A stretch of 45,445 nucleotides of DNA from positions 58,237-103,681 of the forward strand of contig NHBV01000013.1 in the NCBI GenBank assembly GCA_002167775.1. Reading direction: 5' to 3'. Positions 1-24,936 of the stretch are shown piece by piece (position 1 is the stretch's first letter; each line of letters opens with the position of its first letter). The DNA comes from Crocinitomicaceae bacterium TMED16 (lineage in GTDB: Bacteria > Bacteroidota > Bacteroidia > Flavobacteriales_D > Crocinitomicaceae). Both the position numbers and the translations under genes were made by a program. The notes under the pieces were generated by a model. The model had not been told where the DNA came from, made no database searches, and was given only the letters and a program-made list of their open reading frames with translations.

Positions 1-90
1 TTTAGTTGAATCCTCAGAAACTTTGTAGCTCTTATTAGTCTTCCAAAATGAAATCCATTTCGATTCTATTTCCCTAAAGTTGTACTCCAT
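1..90 (-). CDS. leuS: Leucyl-tRNA synthetase, N-terminal 30 codons (partial)
   Basis: The ATG on the minus strand at 90-88 opens a frame that runs unbroken off the left edge. It gives 30 residues beginning MEYNFREIESKW and ending SEDSTK. This matches the well-known start of bacterial LeuRS (MxYxFxxIExKWQxxW), just before the catalytic-domain segment PKFYVLDMFPYPSG, which lies outside the window. The enzyme charges tRNA-Leu in the cytoplasm. A TATCTTTA -10-like element lies 18 bp upstream. The identification rests on a short segment but the pattern is distinctive. Confidence 0.85.
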   Translation of the reverse strand, partial: MEYNFREIESKWISFWKTNKSYKVSEDSTK

Positions 91-107
91 ATCTATTTTT
101 AAGAATG

Positions 108-138
108 TAAAGATAGTCAATGTGATTCATGATATAAA
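108..138 (-). promoter_or_regulatory. Probable leuS promoter (Bacteroidota type)
   Basis: On the minus strand TTTA (138-135) is followed after 19 bp by TATCTTTA (115-108). This resembles the Bacteroidota housekeeping consensus TTTG-N19-TAnnTTTG, with A in place of the last G in both elements. It sits 18 bp before the leuS ATG. No transcription data are available. Confidence 0.4.
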
Positions 139-186: not shown

Positions 187-202
187 TGGCACAAAAGTTG
201 CA
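187..202 (+). promoter_or_regulatory. Sigma-54 (RpoN) -24/-12 promoter
   Basis: The sequence TGGCACAAAAGTTGCA has GG at 188-189 and GC at 200-201 with exactly 10 bases between. It matches the sigma-54 consensus TGGCACG-N4-TTGCW at all but one position (A instead of G at 193). The predicted start is about 12 bp downstream of the GC, near 213. No protein gene lies downstream on this strand before the terminator at 292-315, so the promoter appears to serve a short non-coding transcript. Confidence 0.6.
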
Positions 203-212
203 CTGTGTAGTT

Positions 213-316
213 AAAATACAGAAATACACTTTCTATATTTTTTAATTTTTAACACTTACTTTTTCATAATTCAATGTTTTTAACACAGATGGCCCGGAAG
301 TTTTCCGGGCTTTTTG
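213..316 (+). ncRNA. Putative sigma-54-dependent small RNA (about 100 nt)
   Basis: A sigma-54 promoter (187-202) and an intrinsic terminator (292-315) on the same strand bracket this AT-rich stretch. Genes on both sides (leuS and the UbiA-like gene) are on the minus strand, so neither explains the plus-strand signals. The body is mostly unstructured A/T-rich sequence ending in the terminator hairpin. A 20-codon ATG frame at 275 (MFLTQMARKF...) runs through the terminator and lacks a ribosome site, so I regard it as fortuitous. I recognise no known RNA family. Confidence 0.45.
292..315 (+). terminator. Intrinsic terminator (plus strand)
   Basis: The arms GCCCGGAA (292-299) and TTCCGGGC (303-310) form a perfect 8-bp GC-rich stem with a GTT loop, followed directly by TTTTT (311-315). 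Read on the minus strand the hairpin lacks a U-tract, so it acts for plus-strand transcription. It ends the proposed small RNA. Confidence 0.75.
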
Positions 317-327
317 TTTCTGGAGCA

Positions 328-1113
328 TCAAGATAATAACAAGACTACTCCAACGATTAAAAAGCAAGCATCTACCCAAACAAAATAATAATCTTTGTTG
401 ATCCTAGAATGGAAAAAGGTAAGTAAGAACATATAAGTAAAACTCATTATCCAGGGTAATGTAAAGTTGCTTTGTGTTATCACTGAATAACAAATACCAA
501 GTATAGAAAGGAAACGCATTAACTTTAAAGAATTATTCGTCCCAATGAGCTGCGGAATCGTTTTCATTTCTTCCGGATCATAATCGATATCCTTCATGTC
601 TGAAGGAATCAGTACGGCAAATAAAAGTAAGAAGCCCTCAACAGGGAAAAGGAGACTTTTAAATAGCATATGGGGCATGATGTGCAGTAAAAAGTACCAA
701 ATGCCAAATACTAAGAAAATTTTAAGATATGGGATTTCCCGTAAACTATACCTTCGGATTCTATATACATAAAGAATACAAACAAGTACGCAGATAGCGC
801 ATAATAAATGAATCAAATAATTCTGGGCAAAATAACGCGCGTATAAAACGCCGGCTAACAAAAGAGAAATGATGGAAAGAAATATAACAGAAGCCTTGTT
901 GGCCTCTAACCAATTTAAAATAACTCCAGGTAAATCTCCTCTCCTCAGCTTCCATAGTCGATGAAAGTTATAAATACTCAAAATGCCAAATGCAAACATC
1001 AAAGCATAATAAGGTGCGTATTGATTTGCCTTATAAAGCCCAAGAATATAAACAAAACTAAAAATCGCCAAATGAATGTGAGAACGAATTGCGTATTCCA
1101 TTACCTTGCTCAT
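328..1113 (-). CDS. UbiA-like membrane protein with degenerate first motif
   Basis: This 261-residue, strongly hydrophobic protein has roughly seven membrane segments. It resembles the UbiA prenyltransferase superfamily of inner-membrane enzymes. The second acidic motif is present around residues 170-180 (SDMKDIDYDPEE, compare DxxDxxxD). The first motif, usually NxxxD after helix 2, reads YNFHRLWKLRRGD near residue 48, with the aspartate displaced. It may bind isoprenoid diphosphate weakly or have a different role. The family is seen widely in Bacteroidota as an uncharacterised protein. It lies upstream of leuS on the same strand but 238 bp away. The substrate is unknown. Confidence 0.6.
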   Translation of the reverse strand: MSKVMEYAIRSHIHLAIFSFVYILGLYKANQYAPYYALMFAFGILSIYNFHRLWKLRRGDLPGVILNWLEANKASVIFLSIISLLLAGVLYARYFAQNYLIHLLCAICVLVCILYVYRIRRYSLREIPYLKIFLVFGIWYFLLHIMPHMLFKSLLFPVEGFLLLFAVLIPSDMKDIDYDPEEMKTIPQLIGTNNSLKLMRFLSILGICYSVITQSNFTLPWIMSFTYMFLLTFFHSRINKDYYFVWVDACFLIVGVVLLLS

Positions 1114-24855: not shown

Positions 24856-24864
24856 GTTAAGAGT

Positions 24865-24936
24865 TGACCCACTAGGGCTCGAACCTAGACTCTTCTGGAC
24901 CAAAACCAGACGTGTTGCCAGTTACACCATGGGTCA
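24865..24936 (-). tRNA. tRNA-Gln (anticodon UUG)
   Basis: The minus strand folds into a 72-nt cloverleaf without an encoded CCA. The acceptor arms TGACCCA and TGGGTCA pair, the T-arm loop is GTTCGAG, and the anticodon stem TCTGG/CCAGA encloses the loop TTTTGGT with anticodon TTG. It reads glutamine codons CAA and CAG. In organisms using GatCAB, as here, it is first charged with Glu. Confidence 0.95.

Follow-up and report, generated by a model that had tools for sequence, protein, structure and literature searches.

Several small RNAs of proteobacteria, namely GlmY/GlmZ, Qrr1-5, and CrcZ/CrcY, are sigma-54-dependent. They are short and intergenic, and each has a dedicated -24/-12 promoter, an enhancer-binding activator, and an intrinsic terminator, a layout to which the locus described here corresponds; however, they belong to another phylum and have neither sequence similarity nor an Rfam match to the RNA predicted here. 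Few small RNAs are known from Bacteroidota. Rfp18 of Flavobacterium and GibS of Bacteroides thetaiotaomicron are, like the present candidate, regulatory RNAs of this phylum, but sigma-54 control is not described for them, and no sequence relation to them was shown. General-term literature searches for sigma-54-dependent small RNAs in Bacteroidetes gave nothing. In Flavobacterium psychrophilum, a sigma-54 (SM4) promoter belongs to Rfp36, a putative regulatory RNA (PMC9723704). It resembles the present candidate as an independent small transcript that has its own sigma-54 promoter, it comes from the same order, and the sigma-54 regulon of its host covers chaperones, envelope genes, and a thioredoxin; no sequence relation between the two was seen, as judged by the distribution of the core pattern (see below). 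The small RNA presented here is a new family, although a putative sigma-54 small RNA has already been listed in F. psychrophilum (Rfp36), and, as far as can be read from the DNA, its gene is very probably real and lineage-specific, with a conserved sigma-54 promoter and a regulatory RNA as its product.

The window, that is, the whole stretch of 45,445 nucleotides analysed here, contains no protein gene between leuS and a UbiA-like gene (Table 1). An earlier note had picked out in this spacer a near-perfect -24/-12 element and, downstream on the same strand, a strong intrinsic terminator, with the flanking genes facing the other way. The element, TGGCACAAAAGTTGCA, is in fact an exact TGGCAC-N5-TTGCA with GG-N10-GC spacing, and no other site in the window matches, even with a tolerance of one mismatch; the mean number of exact matches expected by chance, derived from shuffled windows, was 0.03. 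The terminator stem comprises 9 bp, of which 6 are GC, and its T-run lies on the plus strand, with none on the minus strand for the same hairpin; both flanking genes indeed lie on the minus strand. The start of the RNA was placed twelve bases past the C of the -12 box. We consider it likely that 187-315 encodes, together with its promoter, a trans-acting regulatory small RNA which, as we infer, is transcribed by RpoN polymerase and acts by pairing.

Table 1. Features of the leuS/UbiA-like spacer and its borders (positions refer to the window)
Feature	Position	Strand	Remarks
leuS, gene 5′ end (MEYNFREIESKW...)	1..91	-	start ~91, divergent from small RNA
Divergent leuS promoter, putative -7 box TATCTTTA	109..116	-	Bacteroidota TAnnTTTG; TAAAGATA on + strand, 13/13 homologues
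Predicted sigma-54 promoter, -24 (TGGCAC) and -12 (TTGCA)	187..202	+	exact consensus, present in all homologues
Promoter spacer, -12 to predicted start, unconserved	203..212	+	47% mean pairwise identity
Predicted small RNA, ~103 nt	213..315	+	model R1 match 211-316, 116 bits; homologues in 13 genomes
5′ hairpin AAAAUA.AGAAA-UACAC-UUUCU.UAUUUU	213..241	+	predicted fold
Unstructured conserved core UUUUUAACACUUACUUUUUCAUAAUUCAAUGUUUUU	246..281	+	candidate pairing or protein-binding region
Intrinsic terminator of predicted small RNA	291..315	+	hairpin 291-311 plus T-run
UbiA-like membrane protein gene	328..1113	-	convergent on terminator; Pfam UbiA 25.7 bits, under cut-off

The earlier note had named, as an outcome that would refute its reading, loss of the -24/-12 bases in close relatives that kept the flanks. 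This was not observed; 13 species have retained the promoter along with the RNA body and the terminator. When positions 100-420 were compared by BLAST with 60 congeners, long matches were obtained in eight other genomes, all in the same leuS/UbiA-like spacer, and the aligned homologues displayed TGGCAY-N5-TTGYA, a conserved body, and terminator arms changing together. A covariance model built on the RNA body alone, with the promoter left out, brought the carriers to 13 of the 86 genomes of the genus, four of them new. The spacer was the same in 13/13 homologues, and all four new copies had TGGCAC-N5-TTGCA at the same distance from the RNA. Every new copy found by the promoter-free model came with the element, so that the RNA predicted the promoter, which had not been put in beforehand; in the form TGGCAY-N5-TTGYA it is kept in 13/13 homologues. 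Two other matches were rejected, a weak one outside the genus (L032, E 0.0035), which lacks a sigma-54 element and was considered chance, and one of 21 bits upstream of leuS in G012 (L097), which is the rpmH terminator region.

Mean pairwise identity amounts to 84% for the element, 67% for the 5′ arm, and 84% for the RNA core; conservation thus falls in the promoter spacer between the element and the predicted start (Table 1) and returns at +1. The distribution of the core was examined with the pattern TTTTTAACAC-N(3-16)-AATTCA-N(0-3)-GTTTTT in one genome per species (~85,000 species), which resulted in 34 matches. All 12 small RNA matches from Flavobacteriales/Crocinitomicaceae scored 9-11 of 11 for the sigma-54 element, whereas the 22 others, from diverse phyla, scored at most 7 of 11, and the element was present in 0/22; the 12 records are largely the 13 carrier genomes and do not constitute a separate sample. 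Across 399 genomes of the order, no genus other than this one had the core pattern.

The earlier note had also suggested that the transcript, estimated at ~100 nt and free of a protein gene, is a regulatory RNA that ordinary annotation would miss. The lack of an ORF conserved among the 13 species and the covarying hairpins support a non-coding RNA, predicted at 103 nt. In its predicted fold, the 5′ hairpin is followed by a long stretch without pairing and then by the terminator; folding beat that of 200/200 shuffles (z -4.4), with the terminator contributing most. Over the 13 sequences, 96% of the cells of the structure were paired and 16 were double-changed, which 0/500 shuffles equalled, and slid versions of the structure scored far worse; the alignment underlying these values was fitted to the model and is somewhat favourable to the structure. 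Most of the covariation signal comes from the terminator, the stem of which is 100% paired across homologues, with double changes in 5/8 pairs. The 5′ hairpin, weak in folding energy by itself in most species, has 90% of its cells paired and one pair changed from AU to GC in 4 sequences. The mean unpaired probability of the core ranges between 58 and 91% across the 13 sequences. The gene was previously unannotated, and no Rfam family reached its gathering cut-off for the predicted RNA, the best weak match having 23 bits where 90 were required. Elsewhere in the window, a tRNA gene (24864-24936, minus strand) is the sole Rfam match.

In the proposed mechanism, an enhancer-binding activator would open the sigma-54 promoter under a stress condition, and an RNA of ~103 nt would begin near 213 and stop at the 291-315 terminator. 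The small 5′ hairpin and the terminator would protect its ends, and the invariant, unstructured, U-rich core (UUUUUAACAC...AUAAUUCAAYGUUUUUAAC) would stay free to pair with mRNAs or to bind an RNA-binding protein.

RpoN is encoded by one gene in the genome, which also encodes two proteins in which the sigma-54 activation domain is complete. One of these (L120:808-2061, minus strand) is a PspF-like activator with AAA+ and HTH_8 domains and no sensor domain, flanked by miaB and an lptE-like gene. The second protein (L127:1261-2418, minus strand), adjoining pcm, is a receiver-AAA+ (REC-AAA+) protein in which GAFTSA replaces GAFTGA and which has no HTH or other DNA-binding domain. Because the only other full activator thus lacks a DNA-binding domain, the PspF-like protein of the miaB-activator-lptE operon would be the best candidate for activating the promoter. 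In F. psychrophilum, a sigma-54 regulator is likewise paired with LptE (PMC9723704). Among 40 relatives, G024 (83% complete) is the only one without an RpoN match, which may reflect incompleteness or real loss.

When a relaxed sigma-54 pattern was run on two carriers, 51 and 52 matches were obtained, compared with 19 and 29 for the reversed pattern. Because the reversed pattern matches so often, many of the relaxed sites are chance; those common to both species are credible. Such sites are located 36-43 nt upstream of htpG (L152 and L216), of a gene for a TlpA-like thioredoxin (L138 and L214), of one for an N-acetylmuramoyl-alanine amidase (L188 and L220), and of a 62-codon ORF (MKRNVQTLRTN...; L180 and L233), suggesting that these four genes form a conserved RpoN regulon of small size. 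The sigma-54 motif that was mapped experimentally in F. psychrophilum governs groES/EL, dnaK, grpE/dnaJ, lon, htpG, and clpB, as well as envelope and gliding genes, a thioredoxin, and the putative regulatory RNA Rfp36 (PMC9723704), and a survey from 2025 found that, in Bacteroidota, chaperones are enriched among the genes with sigma-54 promoters (PMC12316311). Given the sites before htpG, the TlpA-like gene, and the amidase gene, together with the F. psychrophilum regulon and the survey, a role of the RNA in protein-folding/envelope stress appears likelier than one linked to nitrogen. Of the two links suggested in the earlier note, that to stress is therefore plausible, and that to nitrogen found no support. 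A family of 13 species with a clean sigma-54 promoter would offer a regulator and an RNA that are both defined, as well as a stress regulon that can be tested.

The block at ~104-127 that contains TAAAGATA is conserved in all 13 carriers (79% mean pairwise identity), and several non-carriers of the genus have CAAAGATA at the equivalent position upstream of leuS. As TAnnTTTG is the consensus of the Bacteroidota -7 box (PMC9723704), this block was placed as the divergent sigma-A promoter of leuS, so that leuS and the RNA each have a promoter of their own, the two pointing in opposite directions. In the gap between this promoter and the sigma-54 element, mean pairwise identity is only 39%, and no shared activator-binding motif was seen there among the 13 homologues. 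A palindrome, TTCATGA-N7-TCATGAA (~125-145), was rejected as an activator site, being retained in the nearest relatives only, and so was an unconserved sigma-A-like promoter (TTTG-N18-TAGGTTTT, ~153-182) just upstream of the element.

How the RNA would act was approached by searching 12 carriers for AAGTGTTAAAAA and ACRTTGAATTAT, the exact 12-mer complements of two core words. They proved rare and mostly lay inside coding regions, and no recurrent site at a gene start was found among the 12 carriers, shorter or bulged pairing being outside the reach of this search. The sole recurring complement site (in G017, G026, G031, G033, and G090) was rejected, as it lies inside a long ORF whose encoded amino acids are conserved. 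The notion that the core is antisense to a start codon (CATTGAATTATGAAAA) was likewise rejected, as the position facing the G of ATG differs from species to species. The lack of a recurrent mRNA target among exact complements would be compatible with the RNA serving as a decoy, in which two UUUUUAACA(C) repeats and the U-rich core titrate an RNA-binding protein, in a CrcZ-like or RbpB-type role. In nearly all homologues, two copies of the word UUUUUAAC do flank the core, most of which is unpaired; still, AUAAUUCA between the repeats is equally conserved, although a decoy would have no need of it, and no partner protein was identified, so that we regard titration as unlikely. Action in cis appears more doubtful still. 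The predicted RNA is antisense within the leuS/UbiA-like spacer, and many members of the genus lacking it have leuS 36-90 nt downstream of a same-strand UbiA-like gene; the transcript, or its mere transcription, might limit read-through of the neighbouring operon. However, leuS owns a conserved promoter on its own side of the RNA, so the leuS leader and the RNA do not overlap, and a cis-antisense RNA could do without sequence conservation, whereas here the core is better conserved than its flanks.

Two further readings were considered. The hairpin might merely be the terminator of the convergent UbiA-like gene, with the -24/-12 match a coincidence or a relic, and in G031, G052, G080, and G092 the hairpins are indeed bordered on either side by A- and T-runs, which could make them stop transcription in both directions. 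This is very improbable, as the window and its nearest relatives carry the T-run on the plus strand only, and as element, spacing, and RNA core are kept in 13/13 species. That the transcript encodes a small peptide is scarcely credible and largely refuted by frame changes: in several species, a short frame begins at an ATG within the core and runs through the terminator, but this frame shifts between species because the length of the T-run varies, the ATG is missing in three species (G052, G080, and G092), and a stop follows after three codons in two.

The trans-acting RNA we favour is a gene of restricted distribution. In thirty well-assembled congeners without the RNA, leuS was inspected; it typically lies 36-90 nt downstream of the preceding gene, often a UbiA-like one on the same strand, with no comparable sigma-54 element in the spacer. 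A regulatory RNA gene would thus exist in some lineages of a genus and be missing from the same spacer in others, apparently having been recruited into an ancient sigma-54 network. We tentatively suggest, with rather less than even confidence, that a newly evolved small RNA, which a single genus recruited into its leuS spacer, couples the flavobacterial RpoN regulon for protein-folding/envelope stress to post-transcriptional control, and does so independently of Hfq via its unstructured, U-rich core; the literature on Bacteroides describes neither an obvious Hfq nor an obvious ProQ (PMC7366714). The carriers were strongly clustered in a LeuS tree, where they fell into two supported groups of 9 and 4 species, for which a single origin is possible.
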